A stretch of DNA of 64,000 bases. Origin: Tribonema minus. Lineage: Eukaryota > Sar > Xanthophyceae > Tribonematales > Tribonemataceae. Both the position numbers and the translations under genes were made by a program. Positions 4,223-63,980 of the stretch are shown here, one piece after another. The notes beneath the pieces were generated by a model. It worked only from the letters and a program-made list of their open reading frames with translations. It searched no databases and was not told where the DNA came from. The stretch is taken from positions 124,001 through 188,000 of the forward strand of contig JAFCMP010000129.1 in NCBI GenBank assembly GCA_017506865.1, written 5' to 3'. Position 1 is the stretch's first letter. Each line of letters begins with the position of its first letter.

Positions 4223-7200
4223 TTATTTTCGGTGCGCGGGCTGCTGCTGCTGCTGCTGCTGCGCGGGCGGCGGCGCGGCGAAGAAGCGGTGGCGCAGCGC
4301 GTCCGACGCGCGCAGTCGCTTGTCAGGGTCCAGCTCGAGGATCCCTTCCAGCAGGCCGCCGAGGCCCGAGGGCTCGTCTTGCGCGACCAGTTCCTGTGAG
4401 CGCGCGCGCGCAAGTGGGAATGTTGCCATTTGATGAGTAAGTGAGTGAGTGAGTGAGTAAGTGAGTGAGTGGCTCGCCGCGCGTGCGTGCAGGTGGGGAG
4501 GAGTGATGCCGCTGAGTGAATGAGTGAGTGAGTGAGTGAGCGGCCTGGGGGCTCGTCTTGCGCGACCAGCTCCTGCAAACGAGCGAGAGCGCGCAATTGG
4601 ATGTTGTCATTTGAAGAGTGAGTGAGTGAGTGAGGGGGTGGGGGAGGGGGTTGCGCAGCAGCACGCACAGCTGCCGCGGCGCACGCCGGGCGCGCTCGCT
4701 CACGTCGGCAGCGAAGGCATGAGGCGCCTGCGCGTGCGCAAACGGTCGACGCACGCAGACCATCAACGACGGAAACTACCGAGCGCCGCGTGCATGCTCG
4801 CCTCGATCGTCCGCACGCGGACGCTTTCCGTGCATGCACAAGCCCTGCGCGCTCACGCCGCGGCTGCGCACTTCCCAAGCACGACAGCCCTGTTGCTGAC
4901 TGCCCATCGCGAAGCACGACGCCGGCTCGTCCCCACTGTCGCCGTGCGCGGCAGGCGTGCGTGCGTGAGCACCCGCTTCAGGTGCAGCAGAAAATTGGGA
5001 GTTAGCGTGAGCTGGTCACAGACCCACCGTCGCCTCGCGGCGCAGACGCACAGCAACCAAGTCCGGGCGCTCGCCATATCAAATACCTCATATACAGCTT
5101 TGAGCACCTCGACGTATGCAGGCTCGTGTACATACCCCAAAGCACAAAATGCATCGCGTCTCAATCGGCGATCTGCGCAGGATGTGCGCACGCAGGTCAA
5201 CAGGACCGTCAACGCCATAACCTTCCAAGTACCCAAGTTTACAGAGATCTCATTCGTGAGTACACGTAGTTTCCTGTGCACGGAGCTTATGAAAGTATAC
5301 GAACAGGGACACAAATATACCTACGCAACATACATAACCACATGTTCGCCGGAGTGCACATGTGTACCTCGATCGTCGGCATGCGTCGGATATGCGCGCG
5401 CGCGAGTCCTCGGGGCACGCGTGGCGCCACAAAAATACTTATGAACAACATGCTTACACACAACATATGTATATATATTCATACTCCTAGAAGTATGCTT
5501 CTAAACACGTATTCATGTATGCACCTCAATTGTCGGCATGCGTCGGATGTGCGCGCGCGAGTCCTCGGGGCACGCACGGCGCCAGCGCGAGACGCCGCGG
5601 CTGTCAAAGTCATATACTCCAAAGCATGTACACAGAGACCTTTGCATGAAGCTCGTGAAAGTGTAAATACAGGTACACACATAGACTTACACAACACGCA
5701 TCAACACATGCTAGCACGTACGTACCTCGATCGTCGGCATGCGGCGGATGCGCGCGCGCGAGTCCTCGGGGCACGCGCGGCGCCACAAAAACTTGCGCAG
5801 ACTATATTTTAATACTTCAATGTACATGTTTGCCGGCGTGCGTGCATGTACCTCGATCGTCGGCATGCGGCGGATGTGCGCGCGCGAGTCCTCGGGGCAC
5901 GCGCGGCGCCAGCGCGAGACGCCGCGGCTGTCGAAGTACTTGGCGCCCACGGGCGACGCGCGCACCATGTGCCGCGGGAAAGGCCCCACGCAGCGCTCCA
6001 TCAGCGCCAGGTGCTCCATGTTGTCGTGCTGCAAGGAGGGCGGCGGGGGGGGGTGGGGGCAGGGGGGGGTGAGGCAAGGGTGCGAAGGGGTACAACTCTG
6101 AGCGCGTATGCGCTACTGTGAAGTTGAATGGAAACTCATAAAGTCCAAACAATATTGATCGTTCAATATGTGCCCCACGCAGCGCTCCATGAGCGCGAGG
6201 TGCGCCATGCTGTCGTGCTGCGGCATGTGCGGGGGAGGGGGGGGGTGCTAAGGGCTACAACTGCTGAGCGCATGCGCGCTACTGATGATCAATTAAAAAA
6301 CATGAAGTCCAAACGATGCATACGTGCCCCATGTTGTCGTGGCAATGTGTGTGTGGCGGGGGGGGGAGGAGGCGAGGATTCTGAGGGGTGCTTCAAAAAG
6401 TACCGCAAGTGCTGAGTGCATGCGTGCTGCTGCGATATGCGCCCCACGCGCCCACGCTCCACGAGCGCAAGATGCTCCACATTGGCGTGCTGGAAGGGGG
6501 GCAGCAGGGGGGGGGGGGGGAGAGGGGGCGCTCAGCGCTCACCGCAGCAAACGATGGGAACCCCATGAGGCATGATGAATAGGCGGCCGGGCTTGGTAGG
6601 GTCTTAGGGTCTCAGCAGCGCTCAGCGCTTGCCACGGCCAACAGCAGCTACCGCCAACAATACAGTCGCCTGGCTCAAGCCCCTACAGGCATGACTTGGA
6701 AGTACATGAGTTGCGATGCTCTTGGCGATGGCGCGGCGGCGCCGCCAATGTGCGCCCACCATGAAGACAGGAGTGGACAGGGCGCGGCGGGGGTTTGCAG
6801 CAGTGCTCGCCGTGACAAACAGCAGCTCCTGCTGGCACGGCTCCGCAACAATGCAGCCGCAGTCCCGCAGAGACATGGACATTTGCATTACCCCCCCTTC
6901 CCCCCCCTCGCTACAAAGAGTGCGAAGTCACCCCACGAGCGCGGACCGGCGTGCTTGCTCTGACGACTGTGAGGCGACAGCATTGCGGCAGCGCTCATTG
7001 CACGAGCGCATAGATGTACGGGGATTGCATTATTCCTCCCCAGAAACACAGACACCCCGCTACAAAGCAAAAAGCCGCTCCTGGAGCGCACAATCACCAC
7101 CCTTGCAGTGAAAATGTGATAGCATTGCGGCAACGCTCAGCTCACCGTGGCAAACAGCAGCTTCCCCTGGTACAGCTCCGCAACGAATATGGGCAACTGC

Positions 7201-10200
7201 AGCAGTACCTGGCATTTGCCGGATGCTGCTTGGCACAAAAAAGTAGCAATGGTTTGTCAGCAGCGCTTAGTCAGCTCACCGTGGCAAACAGCAGCTCCCC
7301 CTGATACAGCTCCGCGACAATGCAGCCGCACGACCACAGGTCGCTGGGACGGCACCAGCCGACGCCCAGTATCACCTCCGGCGCGCGGTACTGCCGCGTG
7401 TTCACCGTGGCGCTCTTGTGGTCGTCGACGTACGTGGCGCCGCCGAAGTCTATGACTGCATTGTTCGAGCGCGGGGCAGGTGATGGGGGCGCGGCAGTGC
7501 CGTCAGTGGGGAGACACGGGCATTGCAAGTGAACGGCGGCAGTAGCGGACGTTGAGCAGATGTTTGCACTCCAGCGGTCGTTGTGGTCGTCGACGTACGT
7601 GGCGGCGCCAAAGTCTACGAATGCGGTGCGCATGTGCGCGGTAGGCGACGGGGGCGCAGCGGTGCCGTCAGCAGGGAGATACGAGCAACGCAAACAGACG
7701 ATGGCAGTGGCGGAGAGATGCGGTATGTTTGTACTTCAGCGGTCGTTGTGGTCGTCGACGTACGTGGCGCCGCCAAAGTCTAAGGACTGCGTTGCTTGCA
7801 ACGGGGGCGCAACGGTTCTGTTTTTAAGCAGGAACACAGGCGCATTTTTTAAAGGTATTGCAGTTTAAGTTGAGTTCGCTGCAGTGGCTCTCACGGGTGG
7901 TGCGTCGCGTGCCACATTTGCGCCGCCAGCGCATATGAGACGCGCCATTCAGGAAGCGCCGAAAGGACATGGACGGGCAGAGAATCAAACCCACAGAGAC
8001 ATCAGGTTGAATCGCACTGACAGCCTCAACAATAACTTCAACTTGAAGTAGCAAAAAAGGACATGGGTGCACAGAAGTAGACGGGCAGAGACATCAGGTT
8101 GAACGCCTCGCACTGACTGACAGCGCCTCAACAGTTACTTCAACTTGAATCAGCAAGCGAAGCCCCCCCTGCCAGCCACACACTGCCGCAGTGGCTGGCA
8201 GAGTCAGCAACTTCCGGCGCACATTGCGCGCATATCTGTGCTGACACTGTTGAAGTTTGCAATTGGCGTGGCGCTGTCATGATGTGCATGCGCACTGCCG
8301 GCCTGGAGCTCATAGTCCCCTGCAGCCCCCATGCATGTCACATTTTGAAGTTCAACAGTCCGCAGAGCACTGTGCACCTCGCTTCCCGTCACTGTAACCG
8401 ATGTTGCAGCCAGCAGACTATGCACAAGTGCCGCACTTCGCACGCGTGCAAGGAGTGTACTTAAGTGCAGGCCTGAGGACAGCTTAGCCCTCAGTCGCAG
8501 GTCACAGCCGCTGGGATGTGCACCAGATACATTCCGTAATCGATGCTTTGCAACAACCCCTCAACTGCAAACTTCAACTTCACATTGAAGCCATGCAACA
8601 CCAGATCTTTCAACCTCATGTACTCAGAGTGGCACACGGCCGCCTTGCGACTGTCCTCAGGCTTACTGTAGCACACCGCCTTCGTAGGGTACAGCGCTCT
8701 GCATTCAAACTTCAACTTGACATGCACCCAACTGCACCACCTGACAGTTCTGCTACGTGTCGTTCTTCCGGCCACTGCCGGTGTCTATACAGCAATCCCG
8801 GAATCAGTTCTGCTACGTGTCGTTTTTCCGGCCACTGCCGGTGTCTATACAGCAATCCCGGAATTGAAGGGTCTGATACCAATCACACCCCACGTTCGTG
8901 CGAATTGCAATTGGAGCTTGGGCTTCGGACCGCGTTCACGACACTTTCATAAAGCGGTCCAGGAAAACATGTTTATATTAATTCCATTTTCCAGGGCATG
9001 GTGAATGCCTTCTAGGTGTTGAAAGTGTTTTGAAGCTCGGAGTCGTCCCTGACGAGACCATTACTTGCTCTAGATTGCATTACCCTTTGAAAAGGGACTA
9101 GATCGTTTCCGTTCTCCAGGACGGACTCAGATCGATACCCTGGAACCGCGCACACCAGCGCCCCCAAACTGTCTCGCAGGCGTAGGCACTTATGGCCATC
9201 CGCAGGCGCAAATAGGTGCACCGAGCAGAGCACGTGATTTGGAGCCCGGCAAGGAAGAGACATGCTGACCTAAAGTACCCATTCTGCGAATGCTGCTCAC
9301 ACTTGATGCACGGCAACGCCGCATACTGCCACATTTTTAGTCCCATATTGCTAACATTGCTCACAGTCAATGCACGTCGACACCGGCAGCATCAGCGCGC
9401 CCTGATCGTCCTTTTAGCGCCTTCAGCGCCATGCTCCCATATCATTAATATGATATCATTACACCTGCTGCAATATGTCCAAACCTGGGCAGATTGCAGA
9501 CATTGCTCACCCTTGATGCCATTGACACCGGCAGCATCAGCGCGTCCTGATTGTCCTTGTAGCGCCCTTTGAGCCATAAAGCTATGTCTCAAAACTACTA
9601 GCGCCTTCAAAGCCATTATGCTATGTTTTGATTCGTTCCCATGCTATGTTTCACAGTTACAAACATCGCTCACCCTTGATGCGCGTCGACACCGGCAGCA
9701 TCAGCGCGTCCTGATCGTCCTTATAGCGCCCCCGCTCCGGCTCCAGCTCCAGGTCGCACAGCAGCACGTTCTCCGGCTTGAGGTCCGTGTGCACCAGGCC
9801 CATGCTGTGCAGAAACGCCACCGCCTCCAGCAGCTGCCGAGCAAAGTCGCGCACGTACCTGGGGGGAGGGGTGGAGAGGGGGGGGGGTTACTCTGCCGCG
9901 CATGCATGCTCGCTGTAGAGACCGCCTGCGCAGGGGAGAGGGGGTTGGGAATTCTAAATACTGCGGCACAAGCGTGCTCGCTGTACAGACTGCCAGCATA
10001 GTCCCCCCCCCCCCCCCCCCCCCCCCCCTTCTTGCGACAACCTTCACTGCCACCACTGCTCGCAGAATGGCAAACCTAGCACTTTCATGCACTTGCAACT
10101 GGGCACATCACGCTCAGAGTGAAGCAGCCAGTTGTGCGCCGTGAACCGCGCAGACGCGTCGGCGACTTGCACCAGGCACCTCATAGCACCGCAGCGCGCG

Positions 10201-11278
10201 CGCCGCGTGCGCCGCGTGATATACATATACTTCTATATTTATGTACATGTACAGCGACGCGCAGCAGCGAGCGACGCGCGCGCGCGCACCTGAGCGGGAA
10301 CCCGCGGTAGTCGTTGCGCTTGAGCACGTCGTACAGCGAGGGGCCCATGCGCTCGAAGACGAGGCAGCAGTGGCCGCGCGCGTCGAACTGGTCGAGGAGG
10401 CGCACGCACAGCGCGGCGCCGGCGCCGCCCGCGCGGTTCACGTCGCGCAGGATGTCCGCCTCGATGAGCGCCGACTCGTGGTAGCGCTTGACACGCCGCA
10501 CGACCTTGACGGCGACGGTGCGCCGCCCGCGCCTGTCCCAGCACGCCACGACGCGACCGAAGGTGCCCGTGCCAACGTCCTCCTGCACCTCGTACCCGTC
10601 GCCCAGCACGGAGCCGCTCTGGCCCTCGTAGTGGCCCTCGTCGTCTCCGCCGCCGCCGCCGCCGCCGCCGCCGTTGCCCTGGCCTCTCCGCCCGCCGCCG
10701 CTGCCGCCGCCGCCGCCGCGGCTGCTGCTGCCGCCGCTGCTGCCGGAGCCGTTGCGGGCGCGCCGGCTGTCTCTCTGGCGCTTGTGCTGGTGCTGCTGCT
10801 GCTCTCTAGAGGGATACCTGTCTCGGCTCCTGCTGCGAGTCCGGTCCCTCCTGGCGCTGGGGTAGTCTCCCCAGGCCGGCTCGCGCTGCTGGTGATAGTC
10901 GCGCTGCTGCTGGTCAGGAGACTGCCTTCGCCGCTTCGCACTCCATCCGTTGATGCCGTTGGAAGTGTTGGCGTGGTCGTAGCTGTCATAGTGGCGGTTG
11001 CTGCGCTCCCACGACCTCTTGCTCGACGGCCTCCTACGGCTGCCCTGACGGCGGTGGTCGCCACCATCACCGCCGCCGTCTCTCTTCCAGGACGAGACCC
11101 TCTCCTGCTGCCTGTGGCCACGACGGTCGTAGATCTGTCTGTCCTCGCGACTCATGGCTACTGGCGGGCTCTGGAGTCTCCTTGTGTGGCCAGCGCCATG
11201 GCCGCTTCCGTTGACGGCACCCCCTCGGTTGTAGCTGGTGTCGTCTGCATAGCGGTGACGGTCTCTGCCCCTGCTCAT
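4223..11278 (-). CDS. LAMMER/CLK-type dual-specificity kinase, complete, 5 exons
   Basis: Exons 11278-10290, 9858-9674, 7455-7280, 6028-5852 and 4393-4223 join with matching phases into 565 residues. Residues 1-225 are Arg/Ser/Gly/Gln-rich with RS dipeptides and no fold, as in splicing-factor kinases. The kinase domain starts near residue 228: glycine loop GTGTFGRV, VAVKVV lysine, HTDLKPEN catalytic loop near 351 (HTD rather than HRD is typical of LAMMER kinases), DFGGATY near 394, TRQYRAPEVILG and EHLALMER near 455, a one-residue variant of the family signature EHLAMMER. The tail ends in a Gln run. Family members phosphorylate SR splicing factors in the nucleus; that role is inferred. The gene is divergent from the CBP3 gene. 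Introns 2-4 are filled with copies of the flanking exon edges. Confidence 0.92.
4433..4640. repeat. (GAGT)n tracts plus acceptor-side echo, CLK intron 4
   Basis: Three GAGT/GTGA repeat tracts (about 4433-4470, 4516-4540, 4613-4636) alternate with a copy (4540-4580) of the acceptor and first codons of the last kinase exon (ELVAQDEP). The unit of about 100-170 bases is thus tandemly repeated across the splice junction. On the sense strand the tract reads (CTCA)n, pyrimidine-rich and placed where a polypyrimidine tract is expected. Confidence 0.7.
5364..5787 (-). repeat. Three donor-side echoes of CLK exon 4
   Basis: Copies at 5364-5428, 5524-5610 and 5722-5784 repeat the end of the kinase exon (RWRRACPEDSRA-IRRMPTIE) and its GTAC donor. 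They lie 3' of the real donor at 5851, in the same orientation, about 130-200 bases apart. Identity to the exon is very high near the donor and fades away from it. Each keeps a plausible GT donor but lacks an acceptor. Confidence 0.85.
6168..7190 (-). repeat. Echoes of both junctions in CLK intron 3
   Basis: Acceptor-side copies of exon 4 (HDNMEHLALMERCVGP and the preceding intron) lie at about 6168-6222, 6318-6345 and 6437-6495. Donor-side copies of exon 3 (CGCIVAELYQGELLFAT and GTGAGC) lie at about 6606-6650, 6800-6872 and 7130-7186. Acceptor copies cluster next to the acceptor and donor copies next to the donor, so the intron is built from both ends inward. Confidence 0.8.
7576..9569 (-). 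repeat. Echoes of both junctions in CLK intron 2
   Basis: Copies at 7576-7622 and 7737-7783 repeat the acceptor and first codons of exon 3 (VIDFGGATYVDDH). Copies at 9357-9424 and 9506-9569 repeat the last codons and donor of exon 2 (DDQDALMLPVSTRIK). Between them are unrelated low-copy sequence and the tandem repeat at 8748-8864. Confidence 0.8.
8748..8864. repeat. 58-bp direct tandem duplication
   Basis: Two nearly identical 58-base units run head to tail (start at about 8748 and 8806); each contains GGCCACTGCCGG and CTATACAGCAATCCCGG. It lies inside CLK intron 2 and does not match a neighbouring exon edge, unlike most tandem units in this window. Confidence 0.8.
10003..10028. repeat. Poly-C run (26 bases) in CLK intron 1
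   Basis: An uninterrupted C run on the + strand, thus poly-G in the kinase transcript. Comparable runs occur near 2250, 21620, 40070-40115, 42625, 43140, 45525, 55910, 56510, 57008, 57395 and 60465. Confidence 0.9.
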
Positions 11279-11444: not shown

Positions 11445-14400
11445 ATGTTATCTTCTCTATATCGTGCGGGAGGCGGCCGCCAACTGCAAGGCCTACCGCG
11501 TAGAGCGGGTGCTCTGCTGACACAGATGAAGGGAGTCGCCACAGATCCCCAACAAAATCTGAGTCATTCTCATGTACAGCCGTCGCCGGCAGCACCGGCA
11601 GAAGTGCCAAATTCACTGCTGCGCCTTCTGGGGTTTTACAGTAAGTGGTAACACAGTGATATGTCCATCAATGAGTTTTCATTTTCAGACTCAAACGCGC
11701 AACTTCAACTCTGTCGCAGGTTCCGAAAGCACCAGCATCAGGGCAGCGGAGGCCTTGTTTCGCGCCTGCACAGATGCGGCAACACAGAAGGTGCGCCGCC
11801 GGAGCACGGTCTTTGTGCCTCATTGCAACATGGACAAAGAACACCTGTCAGCAAATGCACCCTAATAATGGGTGTTGCACGAGCAGGTTATGTAGTTGTG
11901 TTTGTTGTTGTGTACTGATGCTCGGCGCATGTGTGCAGCGCTGCCAACAGCCACGTATGCTGCTTCTGAATCACTGATGGTAACTGCGCTCGTGTTGGCA
12001 CGCCTGCAGGCGTGGCACACGCGGTGTAACGTGGCGGAAGACTGGCAGAGGTGCGTCTGCATTTGAAGTAAAAGTTTCAGCCTTCTACTACTGAATGCAA
12101 ACAGACCACAAACACTTGTGATTTGGACCGCCCAGTAGCACAATGCGGCTGGATAAAAAGCACTACTTTGCGATGAGAACGGTATGTGCGGTGGCGGCTG
12201 AGCTGCTGCACCGAGGAGCGGCGCATGGCGCAGCAGCGGAGAATGACTTCAGGTCAACAGACATTGCAGTATGCCTGACAGGCGTTTTCAACACGATTCG
12301 CCTTTCTACGCCACTGACGTCAGTCGGTCATGATGAGCCCTGACTGTATATCCACTGAGTGCTGCCTTGCTGCCGCTCCGCGGTCTGCATCTCAAAGGCC
12401 CGCCTGTAGACACGTTTGCTCCTTTTGCAAGCAGCGCAATTGCCTCCCATAGCTCAATAACGCCGCCATTGAGAGGTTCACTGCTTATTTAGGCGATGGT
12501 GGTGAAGTTCTGAACTGAACTGTGACTTCACTGCGCCACTCTGTCTGGATTCATGCACTTTAAGCAGACAGCGAAGCGCGGGTGCAGGTGTGGTCTCGTT
12601 GTTACATACTTCAGCTCATGCTGCGCGCACGGCACTGCAACCGCAGGTTTGTGTATGTGTGGGCGCACACTGCCGCGGCCACACACCTGGCGGCAGTAAT
12701 CGGGAGGCGGGCTTAGGGTTAGGGTTAAGTCCTAGGGTTAGGGGGATCGGGTCAGGATTAGGCTCCAGTGTTGGAATTACGCCTGCTTCCTGCGCTTGCC
12801 ATTTCCTTCTCACCAGCACCATGTCTGCTGCAAGCAGCTGCACCAACACGTGCTTCTAGATAAGCCCTCCTCGAAGCGTGAGCGCTGTCACCTATCCAGT
12901 AGGGTCAGACAGTGACACATGCTCGCGAGTGTTTTGATGATTATTCCCAAGAGTCGGTTGCGGCCTAACTGTGATTGTGCTGCTCCTGCTCCTGCTCCTG
13001 CTGCTGCTGCTGCCGCCGCTGCTGCTCCTGCTCCTGCTGCTGCTGCTGCTGCCGCTGCTGCTGCTGGTGCTGCTGCCGCTGCTGCTGCTGGTGCTGCCGC
13101 CGCTGCTGCTGCTGCTGCTGCTGCCGCTGCTGCTGCCGCTGCTGCTCCTGCTCCTGCTGCTGCTGCTGCTGCCGCTGCTGGTGCTGCCGCCGCTGCTGCT
13201 GCTGCTGCTGCTGCCGCCGCTCCTGCTGCTGCCGCCGCTGCCGCTGCAGCCAGCACTACCTGCGCACCTGCTACGTGTGGCTGGTGCACAAGCGACTGCT
13301 CAAGGAGGGGGCGTCGTGCCAGCAGCTGCACACGAATTTCTTTAACGAGTTCTGGTGAGACAGCGCTCAGCATGGTGTCTGTCCCGCCACCGCTCGTTCG
13401 CGCATCATCGCGGCGATTGTTGAGTCGAACACACGCATAGTCTGCACACATAGTGATAAGTACAAACATACATGCATGCAGTAGTTATGGTGAGACAGCG
13501 CTCAGCAAGTCCTCAGCCCCCGCCGACATGCGTTCATGCCATGGTTTTCATTCGCGGTGGTTTGGTGAGCGGCACACGCAAACATACTCCAAGTACACAC
13601 ATTTTCAAAGTACAAGCATTCAAGTTTAGACATGCAAACACATACCCAGGCCCTCATTGGTCGCGTGATTGTCGGTTTCGGCATCGCTCATTGTGGTGGC
13701 CTGCCAGTGACGCTTCGGATCGCTGCGCCTGTTGCTGATTGACATGAAACTGCTTCGCATTGCGCCTATTATCTAGAAGAGTCCGTCAGTTGCCACGAAG
13801 CTAACCCTAGCCCTAAACCTCACGCCGCGGTCGCGTGTGTGCCCGCGCCTGGAACTGCACTGCGCGGCACGCCGTACCTCAAGATTCTCGCCGGTTGCCA
13901 CAGCGCTATGCCTACATATCCCTCGTGACCTCATGCCGCTCTCCGCGTGCGCGTGCACCCGCGCCAGGGAGGACACGACGGTGCGCATGCGGCACGCGGG
14001 CATCCAGGAGCTCATGATCAATAAGGTGAGGAGCTGAGCGCTGCTGCGGTCGGGGGCAATTCAGATGTTGCAGACGCGCTGCTGTGCGCGGGCGGCGGTC
14101 TCGGTGTCGACCTGTGGAGTGCCCATTTTAACCCTGATACTAACCTCAACTCCATTCTCAACCCTGATACTAACCTCAACTCCATTAACCCTGATACTAA
14201 CCTCAACTCCATGTGTTTGCGAGGCAGCACCTGCGGAGCACTGCTGAACTGCGTGCGCGCCAACTCCGCAAAGCCATTGACCGCATTCAGGTCAACGCCA
14301 CCTGCTGGCGGCTGCACAGCGCTGCGCCCCCGTCGCATGCATAACAGAACGTCGCGGCTGCGCAGGCGCTGCCCAGGGAAGTGGTCGTGTGTGCGGCGGT

Positions 14401-17400
14401 GGCGGTCTCGGTGCCGGCCTGTATAGAGTGCCCTTTGTAACCCTAACCCTAAACCCAATATCATGTATACTTTGAGCAGCACCTACTGAGCACTGCTGCA
14501 CAGCAGCGCAGCGCCGCACTTCAACTCCATCAAGCCAGCGACTCGGTTCAGTTCAACGCCACCTGCTTGCTGCTGCACAGCGCCACGCACGTCGCATGCG
14601 CAACAGCACGCCGCCGCTGCACTGTCTGACCCTAACCCTAGTGCGCACGGGCGACGGTTTCAGTGGGTCTGCAGAGTGCTATGTGCTGATCAGTTCCATG
14701 TACAGTCCAGTGGCACTTGCTGAGCACTGCTACTTGTTGGTCTTTTGCACGAGCGTCGGAATTAAACACTTACTTTTCAAGCTCAACGGCACACTTCGCT
14801 CTAATTTTGCGAGTGGTGTTGCAGACCGTGACTCCGTTCAACAGGTTGCGAAAGTGCGTTCATGGTGCGAGGACGAGGCAGACTCATGAGGACCAAGACA
14901 AGTCAAAACTGCTCGTTCATTGCTTTTGATAATAGAAAACGTGTCGGTTTCAGCCTCATTTGTTTGTATTTGATTTTCTATTCACGTGTCACACTTGATG
15001 TAATATCTGGTTGCATCTTTGTCCAGCTGAATGCTTCTGCCTCAAGTCTACGAACCCGATGAGCGCTGCCACATGGCAGCTGAGCACTGTGCAGATCGCG
15101 CGCCGTCTGCTGATGCCTCCCCGCTCCGCTGTCTTCGCCGCCCCTCTCTGCGCGCGACGCAGAACTTGAAGATGGTCCAGGAGTACAGGTGAGCGCTGCT
15201 GCGTGCTCCGTTGTGCGTCAGCAGCGCATGCGGCGCGAGCGCTGTCGCCAGCATGCGCACACGCGCATGGAAGTGGTGCTGCATGAGGCCCATTTGTCGA
15301 GTGCCGCAGGTCTCGCTCGCACAGAGCCTCACGTAGCACAAATCGGCGCGAGTCGCGTTTGCTGCAGCACGTCAGGTCTGCGGACGCGCGCTGTTTTGCC
15401 CAATCTTGAGCGATGGTGGGCAAGCCACTGATGAAATTGATGGGCAAATCTGTTCATGGTGAATATTTGTTGGTGTAAGTCTTCTGTCGTTTCAAAGGAG
15501 AGGCCCACATCGTGCTGCGATGCTCGTACGTGGCGTGGCAAGACATAGGGTACCCGTACTCCAAGTATACCTATCGTTGACTATGTACTGTTTATTGATT
15601 TTCGCTTAGGGTGCGAAAACGCCCACATAGTGGGTGTACAGCTTGCAACCAAGACCCACATGTTTCTTCGTGAACACCGCAGAAACGCCTCAGCGCGCAT
15701 TGCGATCACTTCCCAACGACATTGCCAGGTCCTACTTCTGAAGTACTTGGCAACTATGCGCGCCAGCGCTCGTCGCGCGCGCGTCCGCGCAGCCGTCCCC
15801 TCCGCCACTCGCGCCGCTCGTGCTTGGTCTGCTGACTGCTCTTGCGGCTCGCGCGAGTGTACACTTCGGGTTCGACGGTTGCACTCTTGCTCTGAGGGCA
15901 CAATTGCGTGCGCTCGGTGATCTGCTGCATGTAGGTCGCAGATCGTGCGCATCCTCTGAATGTTGTTGGCACCCCCGCTTCACTCGTGCACCTCACCTGT
16001 CGTCAGCGCCCCGGCAGCATGCAACACGCAGTGACATGTATCATCGTCCAGTCCTACGCTCGTGCCTCGTTTGGTCGTCTCATCTCGCCTCCTCTGCCTT
16101 GCGTGCGTGCCGCAGTTTTGAGCTGCTGATGGGGTTCGACCACGCCATGACGCTGACGACAGAGGATGAGAAGGTCAGTGCTCCGTCTCATGCATTGATA
16201 TACCTACCCCTGCTCGGCGCACGAACGCGCATTGCGCTTCGCTGCCGCTCGTGTTGCATCAGTTGGGTTGAGGGTTAGGTTTGAAGTTCGGTCTTGGTGA
16301 CCTAGGGTTAGGGTTAGCCGGGCTGGCGACGGAGGATGAGAAGGTCAGTGCTCAGTTCTCACGCACTGATATACCTACCCCCGTCTCGGCGTACAAAGGC
16401 GCACTGTGCCTCCGCTGCAGCTCGTGTTGTCGAAGTACGGCATCAGCAAGGCGTGAGAGTCAAGGCTGCTCAGTCACGCACCGATACCGCCGTCTCGGCG
16501 CACAAACATGCACTCTGATTCAGCTGCAGCTCGTGTTGTTGAAGCATAGCATCAGGTGGGGCGAGGGTTAGCAGGTTGGGGTGAGCGTCCAGGGCTGAAG
16601 TTAGGGTTAGGTTGGGATTCTAATCTTTGTTGCAGACGGCGGCTACACGACAAGGTCAGCGCTCCGCCTCGCGCACGCGTGACGGCCGTTTTTTGCGGAG
16701 AACGCACCCGCCTTCTGCCTCAGCTCGCGTAGCCCGGGTCAAAGCGAGGGTTAGAATCACAGGTTCAGGGCCTGGGTCAACCACGCTGAGCGGGTCAGTG
16801 CTCAGCCCCGTGCACGCCAACGCCCTCCGGTGTGCGGAAAAAGGTGCCTCGAAGCACTTCTGCCTCTGCCGCAGCTCCTGTAGCTCCTGTGGTCAGGGCG
16901 GGGTGGGGGCGAGGGTCAGGAGTGACCCTAATCCTAACCCTAACCCGAATCCTAACCCTAACCCGACGAACGGCAGCGCTCAGCCTCACACGCGCCAACC
17001 GCCTGGTCTGCGAGAACGACCACACGCGCCACATGCCCTCGTCCGCACCTGCCGTGTTGAAGAAGTTATGGTGCCCGGTATGGCTGCGGGCGAGGTCAGC
17101 CGCGTCCGATGCGTTCCATGCGAGGGGGTCCAGGGGGGGGGGGGGGGGGGGAGTAAGCGCTGCTGTAGGCTGTGAGCGTGTGCGTGTGTGCGCGCACGCA
17201 GTGTCTGAGGTGGTGCACTGGCGATGGCAGCCTTGCGATCAGCTTTTTCTTCACTGCGCGGCACACCGGCAAGCTTGGCACGCTTGCCGACGATGCGTTG
17301 GATGCTGTTTTGTTTTTGTGGTAAATCAGCAGTGGCGATACCGGCGCACTCACTGACAAACGCAGACAGCTAGCGCCGCAGCTGCCTATCACCCTATCAC

Positions 17401-34000: not shown

Positions 34001-36776
34001 CCTCAAACTGGCGGAACTTGACCTCGAACGTCCCCTCTTCCCTGTGTAGGCCCAGAAGTGCTTGGCAAATCCGTCCTCCAGAACTCGAACTTGAACATCA
34101 CCTCCCCCCCCCCCTCCGCCCTCCGTGTAGGCTCAAAAGTCCTTCAGAACTCAAACTTGAACATCACCTCCCCCCCCCCTCTCCCCCCTCCGTGTAGGCT
34201 CAGAAGCGCAAGGCCGATGCCGCCGCAGACCTCCGCTTGTCTTTAGCCTGAAATCCGCCCTTCTGAACTTGAATTGTGCCCCCAACCCTACCCCCCCCCC
34301 CCTCCTGAAGGCTCAGAAGCGCAAGGGTGCCGCCGCCTCCGCTTCTCTTTGGCTCTAAATCGGCCCTTCAGAACTTGAAACCAACTGTGCATCCCCCCCC
34401 CCCCTCCCTGCAGGCTCAGAAGCGTGAGGCCGATGCCGCCACGGACGGCGCCTCCGCTTCTCTTTGCCTTGGCCCTTAAAAACTAACTAGGCCTTCATAA
34501 CTTGAAGTTGAACATCGTGAACCCCCCCCCCCCCCCCATGTGTGAGCCCAGAAGCTCTAGAGCTTCTTCCCCCCCCCCCATGTGTGAGCCCAGAAGCTCT
34601 ATAGAAGCTCTATGGCAAATCTGCCCTTCAGAACTCGAACTTGAGCATCACTCCCCCCCCCCCCCTGATGCAGGCTCAGAAGGGCAAGGCTGCCGCCGCC
34701 TCCGCCTCTCTTTGGCATTAATCTTGCCTTTTTGAACTGTGCCAACTTGAACTGGTGCCCCCAACCCTCATTATACCCCTTCCCCTCCCCTTCACTCTTT
34801 ATAGGCGCAGAAGCGCAAGGCCGACGCCGACGGCGCCTTGGCCTCTCTATGGCCACATCTCTATGGCCTAAAACCGGCCCTTTCGAACTTGAACTGTGCC
34901 CCCTAACCCCCAACCCCCCCCCCAACCCCCCTCCATGTAGGCCCAGAAGCGCAAGGCCGACACCGCAGCCGACGGCGCGTCCGCCAAGAAGGCGCCCAAG
35001 GCCGAGGAGGGGGTCAGCACCGGCGCGGGCACCAAGATCTATGTGCGCGGCCTGCCGTGGTCGGCAACGGAGGAGGAGGTTCGCGACTTCTTCAAGGAGT
35101 GCGGGGAGATTGAGTCGTGCGACCTGCCCACGGACCACAACGGGCGCGCGTCGGGGACGGCGTTCGTCGTGTTTGCGGACTCCGACGCTGCTAATAAGGT
35201 GCGTGCGCAATTACCTCCATCACTGGTACTTCACCATCAGTGCTTTGACGAAAATGAGAGTCGTGCGACCTGCCCACAGACCACAACGGGCGTTTGTGGT
35301 GTTTGCGGACTCCGACGGCGCCAGTAAGGTATGTATTCATCACGCCTTGATGCTTCTGTAGTTCATCCATGGCGCTTTTGCGTATTTGTGGCATTGAGAT
35401 TGAGAGTCGTGCGACCTGCCCACGGACCACAACGGGCGCGCCTCGCGGACGGCGTTCGTGGTGTTTGCGTACTCCGACGGCGCTAAGAAGGTATGTTTGT
35501 ATCGAGACTAGTACTTGCGTGCTTCATTAGTAGCTTTGGCGTACTTGATTGTGGCATTGAGTTTTAGAGTCGCGAGCGCTGGCTCAAGATCGTGCTCGCG
35601 ACGGAGCGCGCGGCGCGCCCGTCCTTCGGCGCGCCCGACAAGAAGGACAAGCCCGAGGGCTGCACGACGGTCTTCATCGGCAACCTGTCGTGGGACGTGG
35701 ACGAGGACGCGGTGCGCGCGGCCTTCGGGGAGTGCGGCGAGATCGCCTCCGTGCGCTTTGCGACGGACCGCGAGACGGGCGACTTCAAGGGCTTCGGCCA
35801 CGTCGAGTTTGTCGACGGCGAGGGCGTTGACGCCGCCATCGACATGGCGGGCACGGAGATTGCGGGGCGCCCCGTGCGCGTGGACTACGCCGCGCCGCGC
35901 GCGCCGCGCGAGTCGTTCGGCGGCGGCGGCGGCGGCGGCGGGGGGCGCGGCGGCGGCCGCGGCGGGGGCCGCGGCGGCGGCAGGGGGGGAGGGCGGGGGG
36001 GGCGCGACGGCGGCGGGCGCGGCGGCGGCAGGGGCGGCGGCAGGTGCGTGTGCGCTGGTGGTGTTTGAGAGTGTGTGGGGGGGGGGGTAGTTGAAGTGCC
36101 TGCGACTGTACTCACAGGTTGCCAAGGGGTTGCAGCAGAGGGCGGTACACCGCACGACAGCGCAGCGCGCAGTGCATGCATATAATGTACAGCTGGCAGA
36201 ATTGGGGGGGTGCTTTTCACGGCGGCGACAGAGGTGGTGGTTGAAGAGCAGCAGCGCAGGGAGCGCATGTGCGCGCCTCATGCCAGCGGGGTGAGCGATA
36301 TGCGGGAGCAATCGTAGCTTACCCTTGCCGAGAGGTCGTGCACCAGTTGCGTGCGCGCTGCGGCGGCTCGAGCTTTGCTTGTTGAACCGAGTGGTATAGG
36401 GGGGAGTGGGGGGGGGCTGAGCAGTGGCACATATGGCGGGTTGGGGGGGCCTGAGTCAAATGCACAAGCGTTCGGCATGGTCTGAGAGCTGCCGAATACG
36501 GTACACATGTATTGCGCACGCTTTGGTGGCACAGTTTGGTCATGACGTGATGGAAGGCGGGGGCGGGGGAGGGCTCAGGATCAGAGCATGGGGCCTTTGG
36601 GACAACATCAGAAAATGTATGCTTTCTGCGCAATGTACGATCACGCTCACAGCCCCCTTCTTTGCCCTCGCTGCCATTCCACGATGCGCAGGGGCGGCGG
36701 CAGGGGCGGCACCCCCGGGCGCGCAAAGCAGACCATCCAGGACTTCAAGGGCAAGAAAAAGACCTTTGACGACTAG
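28080..36776 (+). CDS. Nucleolin-like protein (NSR1/gar2 type), complete, 9 exons
   Basis: Exons 28080-28289, 28734-28910, 30751-30921, 31824-31928, 32660-32776, 33614-33712, 34941-35198, 35568-36043 and 36692-36776 join into 565 residues. Exons 1-6 (residues 1-293) each encode one module: Lys/Ala/Pro stretch plus a Ser/Asp/Glu tract, and all are phase 0 at both ends. RRM1 begins near residue 326 (IYVRGL, GTAFVVF), RRM2 near 413 (VFIGNL, GFGHVEF). An RGG/GAR domain follows from about 499 and continues into the last exon, ending KKKTFDD. Nucleolins act in the nucleolus in pre-rRNA transcription and processing. Between AANK (exon 7) and RWLKIVL (exon 8) the second helix of RRM1 is shorter than usual, so a small exon may be missing from my model. 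Acceptor of exon 7 is repeated about ten times. Confidence 0.88.
29545..30260. repeat. Large imperfect inverted repeat in nucleolin intron 2
   Basis: Arms of about 240 bases (29545-29785 and 30005-30260) are inverted copies. Shared words include GCGGCAGCGGCGGCGCATGA, CCCCCAACGGAAGT-AG and AAGTAAGTACATGCGCG at the inner end. The spacer is about 220 bases. It could be a foldback transposon or a relic of one; outer ends are not sharp and no target duplication was found. Confidence 0.7.
30390..30620 (+). repeat. Two decayed echoes of the acidic exon 30751-30921
   Basis: CTCTACAGAAG followed by AGCAGC-GGAAAGGA and GAGTCTGA motifs occurs near 30555 and, weaker, near 30395. This is the acceptor and first codons of exon 3 of the nucleolin gene. 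The acidic Ser/Glu reading is partly kept, so these could be former exons. Confidence 0.6.
31379..31785. repeat. About 88-bp tandem array (4 units) in nucleolin intron 3
   Basis: Units begin with AGCAGTTGAAGCT near 31379, 31467, 31554 and 31647 and contain AGATTACACAC and CACTTCAAGCA-TTGGAGTTGAAG. The array ends in two exact copies of a 42-base unit with GTATGAGCGCTCAGCGACTG. The unit does not match a neighbouring exon. Confidence 0.85.
32219..32320 (-). repeat. Dispersed repeat family R1, copy 3
   Basis: Reverse orientation relative to copies 1 and 2, with CCAATAACCGTGGTCGCC and CACGAATCAAACA. It lies in nucleolin intron 4. Confidence 0.8.
34040..34940 (+). repeat. Ten-unit acceptor-side echo array before nucleolin exon 7
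   Basis: Units near 34046, 34127, 34195, 34308, 34412, 34546, 34579, 34672, 34803 and the real one at 34938 share: AACTTGAAC, a C run, an AG, then GCTCAGAAGCGCAAGGCCGA and GCCGCCGC (AQKRKADAA). Period is roughly 30-135 bases. Each unit carries a pyrimidine tract and an AG, but donors after the AQKRKAD codons are lacking, so alternative 3' splice sites are more plausible than separate exons; most would shift frame or meet stops. Confidence 0.85.
35260..35495 (+). repeat. Two donor-side echoes of nucleolin exon 7
   Basis: Copies at 35263-35332 and 35400-35492 repeat the codons ESCDLPTDHNGRA and FVVFADSD with their GTATGT donors. The second is nearly complete (about 90 bases). Both keep a good donor but lack a matching acceptor. 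Confidence 0.85.
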
Positions 36777-44718: not shown

Positions 44719-49542
<4,824 letters not shown>

Positions 49543-53100: not shown

Positions 53101-56100
53101 GTCAACAGCAAGAGCTGATTGCTTTGCAAGTTCAAAAACCCGTACTGATCATGCTGATAGCCCCCCCCCCCCCGGGCACCTCATTGTGCTGAACTTCATA
53201 TTGAGCCTGATATGGGAGCGCTGCCACCGCTGCTGCTCGCTGCCGCAGCGCTCTCCGACTACGACCGCGCCCATATATGTACATTCTTACCTGACGTGCG
53301 AGCACTGTCATTGCCGCTGCTCGCTGCCGCAGCGCTCTCCGACTACGACCGCGCCCTGTATATGCACAATTACATGATATGTGAGCGCTGCCACCGCTGC
53401 TGCTCACTGCCACCGCTGCTGCTTGCGGCTGCTGCTGGTGCTGTTGCAGCGCTCTCCGACTACGACCGTGCCCTGGTGCTGGACCTCGCGGAGCCGCTGG
53501 TGTACATGCCTACCCCTGTACATACATGCATACATACATTCGTACGTACCTGACGCGTGAGTGCTGCCACCGCTGCTGCTCGCTGCCGCAGCGCTCTCCG
53601 ACTACGACGGCGCCCTGGTCCTCGACCCTGCGAAGCCGCAGGTGTACATGCATACATTCCAACATCCCTACCCCTATACGTACATGCCTGACGTGTGAGC
53701 GCTGCTGCTCGCTGCTGCAGCGCTCTCGGACTACGATCGTGCCCTGGTGCTCGACCCGGCCGAGCCGCAGGTGTACATGCTGCGCGGCGACGTCATGGCG
53801 CTGCTGCAGCAGCACCGCGAGGCGCTCGACACGTACCGCAGGGGGCTCGCACTCAACCCCTCCAAGCCTGGTACGTATGCTTGGTGTGCGCTTGCGCGGT
53901 CCATACATGCATACCCCGGCAGCTGTGCGAGGGGGCGCTCGACATGTACCGCAGGGGGCTCGCACTCAACCCCTCCAAGCCTGGTACGTATGTATGGCGT
54001 GCGCGTGCGCAGTCGATACATGCCTACCCCGGCAGCTTTGCGAGGCGCTCAAAGGGGGAGTGCGGGGGGCTCACGCTCACACACCCCTGCAGGGCCAGCA
54101 CACAACTCATCTCGGCCCCGCTGAGCCACGCATGTAGTAGTTAGTGGCATGCGCGCATGCACACACGCTGTACACTGGTACACAATTACCTGAACCTCAA
54201 CCTGCTATATATGGCAGGGGGACGTTTTGCGCTCGATCCCCTTGAGCTGGGTCCGTGCGCGAGCCACGTTGCTGGTGCTTGCGGCTCACTGCGCAATCTG
54301 AGGTCTGCCGTGCACGCCGCCAGTACCTGATCAGATCTTGTTCTTTGCGTTCGCAGATTTGAGGTGCCGCACGAATCTGGCGGACGCCACCTTGCTGGTG
54401 TGTGCGGCTCACTGCACAATCTAGTGCCTGCCTCGAACGCCAGAAGCTGGTCAAAATTCGGTCGCAGAGCTGAGGTGCCGCAATGCGCTGGCGGAGAGCC
54501 AGGCACTTCAACCTCAGTCTGCTGTAACCTTGCCGGTGCCTGCGGCTCACTGCGCAAACTCAGCCCTGTTCCAAACGCCGCCACAACCTGACCGCAATCC
54601 TGTCCTTGCGTCCGCAGATCTGAGGTGCTGCACGGCGCTGGCCGAGATCCAGTGCGGCAACATCCGTCTGCTGTAGCCTTGCTGATGCTGGTGGCTCACT
54701 GCGCAACCTTAGGTGTTGCGCGAACGCCAGAAGTCGACCAGAGTTCTGGCTCAATACATCCCGCAGCCTGCCGCGAACGCCAGATGCTGATCAAAATTCT
54801 GTACTTTTTCGGTCGCAGACCTCAGGTGCCGCACGGTCTGGAAGGCCCAGTACCGCAAACTAGGTCTGCCGTAACCTTGCTGGTGCTGCGGCTCACTGTG
54901 CAACTAGTGTCTGCCGCAAACGCCTGCGCTGATCAACATTCTGAACTCTGCTGTTGCAGATCTGAGGTGCCGCACGGCGCTGGCAGAGATCCAGTGCGGC
55001 AACCTCAACATGGGCGCCGCCATGGTCGGCTCCATCCTACACACGCAGCCGGACCGCCCCGACATGCTGCTCGCCGGCGCGGCGCTCGCGTGGGAGGCGG
55101 GCGAGCTCGCCGAGAGCGAGGTGCGTCACCGCCATCTTTAAGTATAACAGTTGAAGTACTTTGTTGTAGAAGTGCCGGACCGTCCCCGACATGCTGCTCG
55201 CCGGCGCGGCGCTCGCGGGGGGGGCGGGCGAGCTCGCCGAGAGCAAGGTGCGTCACCATTTTCTAGTGTTGCTGTTGCACTTGTGTGTCTTTATGGCGGT
55301 CGCCCATTCGCTTGCCAGATCGGCGCGCATGTTCATCGTCCATGAATAGGGTCGTTGAAGTAGTGCAGCCGAGAGCGAGGTGCGTCACCGCCATCTTCAA
55401 GTGTGATTGTTGAAGTATTGTGTTCTAGTCCCGGTCCACAACCTTGCCAAGGTGGATGCGCATCGCACGATGAATCATTGGTGAGTGCAATTGATGAATA
55501 GTGCAGCTAAGAATGAGATGCGTCATGCCATCTTCAAGTGTGGCTGATGAAGTCGTGCGTGCTCTGTGGAAGTTCCCATTGTTGCCTGTAGGCTCGCCGA
55601 CAGCAGGCGTGCAGTGCCATCTTTTGAATTTTTTACTTTCCGTCGAAGCCGTTGTGATGGACAACACGCTGGGCTAACCTTTGAGCCAATCGCGCGAAGC
55701 ATCAGCACACTGCAGCGCCCGCATGCTGAGCACTGTTGCGGCCTGCAGCAATATGTAGGCAGCCTCGCTCTGACGCGTTCTGCGCATGCTCCTCATGCGC
55801 GTGCGCCGCCGCCACCGCCCACAAGTACAACGTGCCGATTGCTGCCACGGTTTGCAGCAGGCTCACGCATCAGCGCACTTACTTGTCTCGTTCTGTGACC
55901 GCGCCTCATGCCCCCCCCCCCCCCCCCCCCTCCCCCCCCTGCGCGCAGACCCTGTACAGGATGGCTGTGGCGCAGGACGTGCGCCTGCTAGACGACAGGT
56001 TCATCGTCAATGCACTGAGGTGAGGGGGCGGGGGCTGCGCACCAAAGTACCACCTCGCCTCGTAGGATTAGGGTTGGGTTAGGGGGTTCTGGTTAGCGTT

Positions 56101-60240: not shown

Positions 60241-60655
60241 CTCCTTGCTGGCCTGTGGGCCTGCTGTGGGCCTCAAGGCCCCGCGTTTCAACAGATGCAG
60301 CATTTGCTTTTGCACCGAGCTGCAAAACATAGCCGCCAGGCGCAGGGGCGCAGGGCGAGCATGAATGCGGCGCAAGCCCGAGTGCAAACATAAAGACAGT
60401 GCCACGACATATATGTACATTACGCCGATGAAATGTCAAAATCTGGCAGGGATGTGGCAGCGGACCCCCCCCCCCCCCCCCCCCCCCCTGCAGCTCTCTA
60501 CCCTCATGAAGGCGCTCTCTGCTCCCAACCCAATGCTGCTATGGTATCCCCGTGGCTTACACAGATGTTGTTGGCTACTGCAATTTACGCATCCCCCTTT
60601 GATCCCCCCCCCTCCCCCCAACCCTGCATCTTGCGCCCCTGTGGCTCGCCGCAGC

Positions 60656-61207: not shown

Positions 61208-63688
61208 ACATGCGAGCAAGCGTTTTGTTCAGAACATGGTCGGCGGCGGTTGAAGAGGCATCGGCGACGACTGCGCGGCGCTTGAGAGGGGGCGCCACGT
61301 AGTGCAGGTTGAGCAGGTGTTGAGCACTGAGCAGCAACCACAGCAAGCAGCAGGGCTCATAGTGTATGATCTGACTAAAGAGAGCTTTTGTGAGATGGGG
61401 TTAGCACAGTCGGTGGATGGGGAATTGACGTGCGCGCAGTGAGTCGCGGCCAGCAGCAAGCCGCTGTGATGTTGTAATGCCGACCACCGCTAAACACGGC
61501 AGCCCACAGCGGGCCAACGTTCACGCACACGCACCAGCGCGCGTTGCGCAGCAAAGCCCGCTTTAGCAGCAGCGGCGCAGCCAAGCAGGCCTGCAGCAAA
61601 GAAGATGTTTCAACGAGCATTGCGACTCTGGCTGAAATGGAGCTCATTTGCAAATGCGCGCTGGTGAACTTTACTTTGAAGAAGCTGACGCTCTGAAATG
61701 GGGGCTGACGCGCAAGCGCACGCCGGCGCTGAGCGCTTGTGCGCCAGTGCGTGCAGCGTTGCGTCCACGGCTACGCGCAACACACGAACAAACAACAAAA
61801 ACTTCACCTTTGCAACACGAACTTCACTTTGCAGTGTTGGTGACGTCCACAAAAACGCGGGTTCACAAAACAAGAACAAACAACACGAACTTCACCTTTG
61901 CAGTGGTGTTGACGTCCACACAGATCGGATCCACAAAACATGAACTTCACATTTGCAACACGAATTTTACCTTTACAGTGTTGTTGACGTCTGCGAAGAT
62001 GCGCGCCATCTGCTCTAAGCGCTGCTGCGCCAGCGCGTACGGGCGCGCGCAAGACACGAACAAATAACACAAACTTCACCTTTGCCACGGTCACGCCAGA
62101 CACTTGAACTTGAATGCACTTCACCTTGGGAGTGTTGTTGACGTCCGCAAAGATGCGCGCCATCTGCTCTGAGCGCTGCTGCGCAAGCGCGTACGGCATT
62201 GCGTCCGCAGGTGCGCAACACACACACACGAACGAACAACACAAACTTCACCTTTGTAGTGTTGTTGACGTCCGCAAAGATGCGCGCCATCGGCGCTGAG
62301 CGCTGCTGCGCAACACGCGACCGAACAACGCGGACATCACCTTTGCCCCGGTTACGCCATACACACTTGAACCTGAATGAACTTCACCTTAGCAGTGTTG
62401 TTGACGTCCGCGAAGATGCGCGCCATCTGCTCCTCCACGCGCCTGTCGATGCTCTGCCCCGGCAGCAGCGGGTTGCTGCTGAGCTCGAAGCCCGACACGA
62501 TGCCGTTGCCGGCGAGCGTCGCCATGTGCGGCCCGAAGAGCACGCCGCGCTTGCGGAAGACGGCCTTGGCCTGCGCTCACGTGACAGTTACAGCAGCGCT
62601 CATCAGTTCAACCGCCCCCGCTGTCGCTCTCATGTACTTTCTACAACCAATCGCCCCCGTTGTCACACAAATGTGCTTCTTATGCGTCTCGGTCAGGGCG
62701 CAAACAAGTATGGTGTACCATTTCAGGTCATGAGGGAAAATGACAGTTACAGCAGCGCTCATCAGTTTAGTCGCCCCAGCGCTCGCGCTTGCGTAGCATT
62801 ATACTCAGGAGCACGTTGGCGTGCAGCCCCGTGCTTGCATGACGGACTCGCGGCCTGCGGGGCACGCAGCGCGATGGCAGCAGCGCGAGAGCAGCTGCGC
62901 TACATGCCACTCACCATCTGGGTGCACGGCGGATTCGCCCCCTCAATCGCCGCGAGGCAGCCGTTCTCCGCAAGCAACTGCGCAAGTCCTCACCATCAGC
63001 ACCTACTGGGCACAGCTTAATCTGTAGCAGCGCACCAGATGCACGATGCGGTACTCGCTGCACGCTCACCCCTGGGTGCAAAACGACTCACCATCAGCAG
63101 CTAATTGGCACAGCTTGATCTGTAGCGGTGTGCAAGACGACACCTGCTCACCACACGCTCACCCTTGGCGCAAAGCGAGTTTGCCCTCTCTAACGCCGTG
63201 AAGCAGCCGTGTTCTCCGCAAGACCTGCGCAAGTTCTAGAAAGAAACATACTTAGTGGTATTACCTACTTGGAAATACACACTTCTTCTTACCGCGCTGG
63301 TGAACGGCGAGTTCGCCCCCTCTATCACCGCGGGCAACCATTTCCGCGAGGCGTTGCGCGCGGTCTAAGCAAAAACATACATGAAGTACCAAAGACAAAA
63401 AAATGTACTTGAAGTACCTGAACTACATACTTCTACTTACCGCCTTGGTGCACGGCGAGTTCGCGCCCTCTATCACCGCGAGGCAGCCGTTCTCCGCGAG
63501 GCGCTGCGCGCGGTCCGCGTCGATCTCGTTGCGGTGCGCGGCGGCAAAGACGACGTCCGCGGGCACGTCGAAGATGCACTCGGGGTCGTTGAAGCGCGCC
63601 GTCGTGGACGAGATGATGTAGCGCCCCAGGCGCGCGCCGCGCTCGTTTTTGATGCTCACGACCGTGCGCAGCTTGGCGGCGTCGAAGC
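61091..63688 (-). CDS. Glutamate dehydrogenase, C-terminal part (partial at right edge)
   Basis: Three leftward exons, 63688-63441, 62570-62388 and 61183-61091, join in phase and encode the last 174 residues. Family marks: DVVFAAAHRNEIDADRAQRL, ENGCLAVIEGANSPCT, RGVLFGPHMATLAG and the end ISGFVKVADVMLAHG before the stop. Glutamate dehydrogenases interconvert glutamate and 2-oxoglutarate with NAD or NADP. The usual Gly-Lys-Ala-Ala-Asn-Ala-Gly-Gly-Val loop of hexameric enzymes is here GPHMATLAGNG, so this is a divergent or large-type member, or a related dehydrogenase. The catalytic N-terminal half lies beyond the window. The 5' edge shows two further copies of the exon start before the window ends. 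Introns hold five and three donor-side copies. Confidence 0.72.
61825..62330 (-). repeat. Five donor-side echoes of the middle dehydrogenase exon
   Basis: The codons QMARIFADVNNT and donor GTGAAGTT recur near 61978-62045, 62130-62215 and 62265-62325, with shorter ones near 61828 and 61895. Copies are spaced about 80-170 bases and share CGCAGCAGCGC-CAGAGCAGATGG. Confidence 0.88.
62910..63365 (-). repeat. Three donor-side echoes of the upstream dehydrogenase exon
   Basis: Copies near 63285-63362, 63165-63240 and 62915-63000 repeat AENGCLAVIEGANSPCT and variants of the donor. The copy nearest the exon keeps GTAAGAAG; others have GTGAG or degraded donors. Confidence 0.85.
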
Positions 63689-63794
63689 CTGCACGAAGGG
63701 GGGGGGGGTGCGATGATGAAGCGCGCATCAGGACACACACACGCAAGAGACGGGGGCACTGCGGCGTGAAAGCGCTGCTGGCAATTGAAGCGTG

Positions 63795-63980
63795 CACAGT
63801 GCGTGTTCTTGATGCTAACGACCGTGCGCAGCTTGGCCGCGTCGAAGCCTGCGTGAGTGGGGGCAGCGTAACGCGAATCAAATCGGGGCTGTGGCGTGAA
63901 CTTGGTGCTAGCGGCGTGGGCCAGCGGCCGAGCTGCACGCCATTCTCGTTCCCGATGCTCACAATTGTGCGCAGGTCTGG
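63795..63980 (-). repeat. Two acceptor-side echoes of the upstream dehydrogenase exon
   Basis: 63800-63860 repeats GFDAAKLRTVVSI with its CAG; 63915-63975 encodes LRTIVSIGNENGVQLGRW, matching LRTVVSIKNERGARLGRY of the real exon. The conserved protein-level similarity of the second copy suggests that it was once, or still is, coding. Confidence 0.8.

Follow-up and report, generated by a model that had tools for sequence, protein, structure and literature searches.

The introns of the yellow-green alga (xanthophyte) Tribonema minus, whose assembly comprises 158 Mb in 554 contigs, were analysed for direct copies of their own splice junctions, both in a stretch of 64,000 nucleotides (bases 124001-188000 of contig C129, hereafter the window) and in a set of homology-defined introns elsewhere in the genome. 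An earlier note on this DNA had described ten genes of the window whose introns appeared to be built from decaying tandem copies of the flanking exon edges; four of these genes were tested here and a fifth was judged by eye. The four encode a CLK/LAMMER-type kinase, an RRM protein (assigned by Pfam PF00076), a TPR-like protein (matched by TPR models below their cut-offs) and an ELFV (glutamate-type) dehydrogenase, two exons of which span positions 75-150 and 151-210 of the Pfam profile with no gap. The copies, which we call echoes, proved real at the coordinates given in that note, namely at six of the eight junctions of the kinase gene and at sites in the RRM, TPR-like and dehydrogenase genes (Table 1).

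Exon-edge copies in the window

The exon borders of the CLK gene are independent of our own alignment because they are supplied by the NCBI T. minus protein P0121, which maps to the locus residue for residue and implies four introns. An exon-edge search found 15 edge copies inside these introns; 12 of them score well above the maxima reached with shuffled sequence (12.5-16), and the other three, scoring 16-19, lie close to those maxima. The same search placed no exon-edge copy at either junction of intron 1 (10289-9859). For the remaining genes the borders were taken from reading of the sequence, and the junctions were picked because the earlier note had named them or their gene, so that their hit rate provides no estimate of frequency; two of them, the acceptor near 55948 and the dehydrogenase acceptor near 62570, gave zero edge copies in this search.

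At the RRM acceptor near 34941, two of the five copies, with scores of 16, do not reach the shuffle maximum of 17, yet by eye they belong to the same module. This acceptor module, consisting of a long C-run, AG and the exon edge, is repeated across 0.9 kb (34040-34940), and several other acceptors in the window are likewise preceded by long C-runs. A GCTGCT-rich stretch at about 53387-53451 matches many contigs, including small ones (e.g. C461, C462, C368 and C109), with the matches often paired 36 bp apart, and is apparently satellite-like sequence. On the minus strand, positions 684-1198 hold a further likely gene with an exon end, GCGCTGTACAT, that stands before GTGAGT; a copy of this exon end lies downstream, preceded by CAG and followed by GTGAG.

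Table 1. Exon-edge copies in the window and the coding span of the kinase gene (window positions)
Feature	Position	Strand	Details
CLK/LAMMER-type kinase gene, coding span	4226..11155	-	introns 10289-9859, 9673-7456, 7279-6029, 5851-4394; P0121 mapping
2 donor-edge copies, CLK exon ending 9674	9549-9511, 9404-9370 (9370..9549)	-	37/40, 33/35; scores 32.5, 31; shuffle maximum 16
2 acceptor-edge copies, CLK exon starting 7455	7620-7581, 7782-7746 (7581..7782)	-	37/40, 36/37
2 donor-edge copies, CLK exon ending 7280	7184-7146, 6850-6811 (6811..7184)	-	36/39, 33/40
Acceptor-edge copies, CLK exon starting 6028	6217-6178, 6489-6455, weak 6341-6324 (6178..6489)	-	36/40, 28/35, 17/18
Donor-edge copies, CLK exon ending 5852	5765-5726, 5564-5525, 5409-5368 (4802..5765)	-	39/40, 37/40, 38/40
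Weak donor-edge copies, CLK exon ending 5852	5198-5160, 4833-4802	-	29/39, 24/32
Acceptor-edge copy, CLK exon starting 4393	4542..4572	-	28/31
5 acceptor-edge copies, RRM-protein exon starting ~34941	34808-34843, 34677-34704, 34417-34457, 34314-34341, 34201-34230 (34201..34843)	+	C-rich tract + AG + exon edge
2 donor-edge copies, RRM exon ending ~35198	35289-35328, 35447-35490 (35289..35490)	+	34/40, 39/44
4 acceptor-edge copies, TPR-like exon starting ~53721	53249..53636	+	37/45, 39/45, 23/26, 21/24; shuffle maximum 15
1 donor-edge copy, exon ending ~53870	53939..53983	+	44/45
4 acceptor-edge copies, exon starting ~54960	54357..54858	+	32/41, 42/44, 29/33, 23/28
1 donor-edge copy, exon ending ~55120	55203..55247	+	42/45
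5 donor-edge copies, ELFV dehydrogenase exon ending ~62388	61827..62294	-	39/43, 42/45, 42/45, 25/30, 27/33

Junction copies outside the window, their anatomy and intron length

The survey outside the window covers 163 introns from 30 kinesin and six CCT-chaperonin loci. Kinesin motor exons were located genome-wide, and introns were defined by a purpose-written spliced alignment to a profile built from 11 of the genome's own kinesins; 30 of the 42 listed kinesin loci were used, the first 20 being mostly the stronger matches. Introns shorter than 150 bp or with xGAG acceptors or unusual GC donors were left out (10/67, 8/68 and 2/48 in the first 20 kinesin, the ten further kinesin and the CCT loci, respectively, 57 of 67 thus being kept in the first set), as were exon edges below 30 nt (2/114, 3/120 and 0/92 junction sides). 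An echo was recorded where a 40-nt exon edge scored at least 18 in its own intron.

By this measure the first 20 kinesin loci show echoes at 13/56 donors and 11/56 acceptors, with controls at 6/182 for exon-interior stretches, 2/336 for introns of other genes, 0/112 for the reversed own intron and 0/112 for shuffled sequence. The ten further kinesin loci replicate this (12/59 donors and 16/58 acceptors; controls in the same order 1/153, 0/351, 1/117 and 0/117), and the CCT-chaperonins, a different gene family, have echoes at 9/46 donors and 3/46 acceptors (controls 4/130, 0/276, 0/92 and 0/92). Pooled, 64 of 321 junctions carry echoes, as against 11/465 exon-interior stretches, 2/963 introns of other genes, 1/321 reversed and 0/321 shuffled introns; the exon-interior matches, which come from stretches 50-130 nt away from the junction, are more frequent than in shuffled sequence, as would be expected of longer duplications. 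About one third of introns carry echoes, 56/163 (20/57, counted by hand, 25/60 and 11/46), and the description of nearly every intron as built in this way was too strong; what stands is a process that adds DNA beside splice sites in many genes and contigs. Eleven of the 30 kinesin loci are echo-free in the span tested (L009-L012, L014, L015, L017, L020, L026, L028 and L038); seven of these have just one or two introns in the span, but L038 has seven without an echo, and thus genes differ strongly in this respect.

An artefact of wrong exon borders or misassembly is conceivable in that, except for CLK and one kinesin, the borders rest on our own spliced alignment or on sequence reading. Set against this, both NCBI proteins map exactly: besides P0121, the T. 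minus kinesin P0001 fits its locus residue for residue and its motor-domain intron is the one given by our alignment. Moreover, the copies differ from one another, unlike reads collapsed or doubled in assembly, and the controls with shuffled, reversed and other-gene introns give almost no hits. We consider such an artefact scarcely credible.

With a 60-nt query, 101 copies were recovered at 53 of 229 kinesin junctions. They are direct repeats of the exon edge together with neighbouring intron sequence, as the reversed-intron control also attests, and 33 of the 53 nearest copies show homology (z>3) in the intron part of the unit. The median spacing between successive copies is 156 bp in the first 20 loci, where 13 of 14 multi-copy families have a nearest copy that resembles the exon more than the farthest one does, in keeping with the reported fall of identity with distance. 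Head-to-tail contiguity is exact in young cases, such as a 177-bp unit across a donor with 98-100% identity (L021) and a perfect 39-bp tandem duplication across another donor, comprising about 12 nt of exon and 27 nt of intron (L024:4879-4960), which is apparently very recent; in many older cases, diverged sequence intervenes between the units.

The reported sidedness, with acceptor copies upstream of the acceptor and donor copies downstream of the donor, was borne out: 89 of the 101 copies lie in the intron half adjoining their own junction and 12 in the far half. This placement bears on the possibility that the introns were themselves born by duplication of AGGT-bearing exon segments, with the echoes as relics. 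Intron gain of this type was proposed by Rogers (1989) and Hellsten (2011), as described by Ma, Lan and Niu (2016; PMC4974935), where a tandem duplication crossing an intron-exon boundary is reported to have created a new intron in the potato RdRp gene. Such an origin predicts crosswise copies, that is, of the upstream edge at the acceptor and of the downstream edge at the donor. The own-side placement leads us to reject it, and we leave it only a remote chance.

In the kinesins, introns with echoes have a median length of 946 bp and those without of 556.5 bp; echoes occur in 0/16 introns of 150-400 bp and in 11/12 introns of at least 1300 bp. Of the 91,163 intron bases in the kinesins, 13,294 belong to junction-linked families, a figure that is presumably a lower bound because older copies fade.

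Decay of the copies

The earlier note had offered, as an alternative to intron growth, that the process supplies alternative splice sites, and selection might keep echoes as alternative or decoy sites or as alternative exon ends. This was first suggested by the better preservation of exon parts than of intron parts, which is also seen between copies (10/10 families) and has a step at the junction; it further draws on the excess of third-position differences that persists between copies, and on the retention of GT in 34/46 donor copies and of AG in 44/55 acceptor copies. That retention is, however, roughly at the level of neutral decay (0.815 and 0.78, respectively). Gaps in the copies are multiples of three in 6/59 cases, and stops number 5 among 422 single-change codons, where 7-11 are expected at 2.5% per change (about 7 on our estimate, made from non-synonymous changes, that 278 changes lie on the echo side, and 10.6 with every change placed there), a depletion that is weak at most. 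The NCBI CLK protein uses the outermost sites. A neutral simulation searched identically reproduces nearly the same exon and intron means, save for the copies with the most intact exon parts. Echo-versus-exon mismatches at codon positions 1, 2 and 3 (8.9, 7.1 and 17.3%) follow the pattern expected if the copy is neutral and only the exon, drifting at third positions, is under coding selection. The codon-position, gap and stop tests mostly favour neutrality; selection on the echoes appears very improbable, and as far as such sequence comparisons can speak to it, there is no good support for an echo function or for a supply of alternative splice sites.

Some observations weigh against purely neutral decay. 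Differences between echoes also lean to third positions (14.9, 12.0 and 21.8%), a lean that fits neutrality only on the assumption that the copies split off from the drifting exon at separate times, and 218 of the 422 single-change codons are synonymous, as against 0.267 expected, an excess that we assign to the exon side. Furthermore, copies with an exon-part identity of at least 0.94 have an intron flank of at least 0.8 in 2/14 cases versus 74/99 in the simulation, and this excess of flank divergence stays when the insertion-deletion rate of the simulation is altered. Candidates for its cause are rearrangement inside arrays and conversion from the exon. The latter, by refreshing the exon parts, would make old duplications look young and keep junction families detectable for longer, and it would suit the near-perfect exon parts with diverged flanks that our simple model does not give; yet the divergence ratio is ordinary (0.167 vs 0.092) where the flanks are clearly homologous (51/101 copies), and conversion would leave unexplained the junction crowding of purely intronic families described below. 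As an account of the junction families we hold it to be improbable.

Crowding of repeats at junctions and a proposed model of intron growth

Local direct-repeat families touch a junction in 58 of 81 cases in the kinesin gene spans (30/41 and 28/40); among the 11 families of the first 20 loci that touch no junction, one (L021:7455) covers no intron. A share of this kind might arise from uniform genome-wide duplication without any hotspot, if exonic duplications are purged and junction-spanning ones survive and stay visible longer through the frozen exon. Beyond the kinesin motor spans, in sequence whose junctions are not known, there are indeed local repeat families (18), and the window has young tandem duplications away from the tested junctions. 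In forward simulations of uniform duplication, run with 11 parameter sets and an identical detection procedure, detection bias and frozen exons alone yield junction shares of 0.34-0.53. The observed share exceeds even 0.53 (binomial p 5e-4); simulated junction rates raised threefold, fivefold and eightfold give 0.55, 0.67-0.69 and 0.77, respectively.

Two further lines of evidence speak against uniformity. First, of the 22 purely intronic families, 10 come within 40 nt of a junction as against 3.1 expected, and none of 2000 random placements reached ten. This test is free of the frozen-exon bias because such families have no frozen reference, and 12 of the alignments on inspection were mostly of complex sequence. 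Second, the exon breakpoints are confined: the exon part measures 28-74 nt in 41 of the 43 nearest copies and 100 and 112 nt in the other two, with exons of about 150-160 nt at the median. A uniform breakpoint under the same measurement would place 60% at 80 nt or less (Kolmogorov-Smirnov p 5e-7), and only 2/43 breakpoints fall in the outer 40% of the possible range; the measure left out 10 of 53 nearest copies, nine with spacing above 260 bp and one with an exon part below 18 nt. An earlier ungapped measure had placed 41/42 at 77 nt or less, and a looser gapped extension, applied to all 73 copies found in the first 20 loci, exceeds 77 nt in ten, five of them at identity of at least 0.8. Selection against long exon copies, as strong decoys, could also shorten the exon part. 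Nevertheless, the junction share, the intronic crowding and the confined exon breakpoints disfavour uniform duplication as sole cause, and we judge it unlikely.

The tandem junction copies, their same-sidedness and decay, the lack of a sign of coding constraint, the link to intron length and the junction crowding, each established at the level of sequence comparison, lead to the proposal that introns are lengthened by recurrent, junction-centred short tandem duplication with the outermost site staying in use, an account that we regard as probable. Short tandem duplications, spaced mostly by about 90-240 bp, would recurrently span or abut the splice junction, each taking about 28-74 nt of exon edge and the adjoining intron. 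If the outermost donor or acceptor remains in use, the extra unit would fall inside the intron and the protein would be unchanged; each event would thus make the intron longer by one unit, and older copies would be pushed inward to decay near-neutrally. That the outermost site is the used one we infer from borders given by the NCBI protein for CLK and by exon homology for the other genes, and we likewise infer that the junction focus reflects a higher local duplication rate and not better retention. As to the chemistry, staggered breaks or paired nicks would likely be repaired through fill-in followed by end joining. In ten young duplications free of mismatches, whether located at a junction or elsewhere, the match is longer than the unit by -1 to 4 bp, a result compatible with end joining and without any hint of long homology.

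A bolder version, which we put forward tentatively as a possibility, is that short tandem duplications in this lineage have their mutational hotspots at splice junctions and that intron length is a by-product of splicing. Transcription or splicing, e.g. through nicks or RNA-DNA hybrids at exon-intron borders, might open the junction to staggered breaks over an exposed zone reaching about 80 nt into the exon and 170 nt into the intron, such that spliced genes would pump DNA into their own introns.

Several points count against the junction focus. The tests of it are confined to kinesins, and the junction excess of about fivefold that they call for derives from our own simulation. At least two of the purely intronic near-junction families (L019 and L032) seem to be junction copies in which the exon part escaped detection. 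Pair counts are less extreme than family counts: at an identity of at least 75% there are 52 junction pairs and 61 intronic ones, and at 90% or more 11 and 6, respectively. Very young events are too few for a bias-free count.

Introner elements are dispersed families shared between genes that act as a genome-wide source of intron sequence; the junction copies are comparable to them as a genome-wide source, but the exon-edge queries (as distinct from whole introns) matched introns of other sampled genes in only 2/963 trials, and revealed no introner-type shared family. Intronic minisatellites similarly have tandem units that grow and decay, whereas the units in T. minus hold a coding edge and a splice site and lie at junctions. 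Tandem duplication across a splice boundary is already known as a single event (PMC4974935): the potato RdRp case shares with T. minus a tandem duplication spanning the boundary, but it concerns one event in one gene that made a new intron, whereas in T. minus about one third of the sampled introns are affected, at both splice sites and in repeated rounds, and existing introns are lengthened. The gain of Rogers and Hellsten, as related in that text, is alike in that local tandem duplication supplies splice-site copies, and differs in that the T. minus copies lie on their own side and the introns pre-exist. A precedent for the chemistry is offered by human and mouse cells, in which small tandem duplications arise via Pol alpha-primase fill-in at 3' overhangs and end joining (Schimmel 2021; PMC8355091). 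There too the duplications are small, made at breaks and end-joined; the route is described for human and mouse and serves for the junctions of this alga as an analogy only. In the reports as far as they were accessible, searches of the open-licence literature found no account of a genome with a third of its introns carrying junction copies, nor of duplication centring on splice junctions.

The growth increments are still legible in T. minus, each echo being an oriented and roughly datable record of one event, and rates, breakpoints and the role of the splice junction thereby become measurable in an alga. To our knowledge, intron lengthening outside transposon insertion is poorly documented. 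If the junction focus is mutational, transcription or splicing would be linked to genome growth.

A short breakpoint motif was sought among 9-mers of the introns and was rejected as a candidate, the search giving mainly telomere-like, low-complexity and ACTTCAACT-like words; among these, position relative to echoes was examined for the telomere-like words alone. Telomere-like arrays (TTAGGG/CCCTAA) are scattered through the window (12713-12743, 16933-16964, 44290-44331, 46182-46234 and others). The kinesin loci L009-L038 have 47 in 91 kb of intron (30 of 117 introns) and none in 27.6 kb of exon, and all sequence examined has 95 in 292 kb, some loci overlapping. They may be footprints of break repair. 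Such repeats are present in 16/47 introns with echoes and 14/70 without, a difference from which we claim no link because introns with echoes are longer. At L016, one telomere-like array lies inside a duplicated echo unit.

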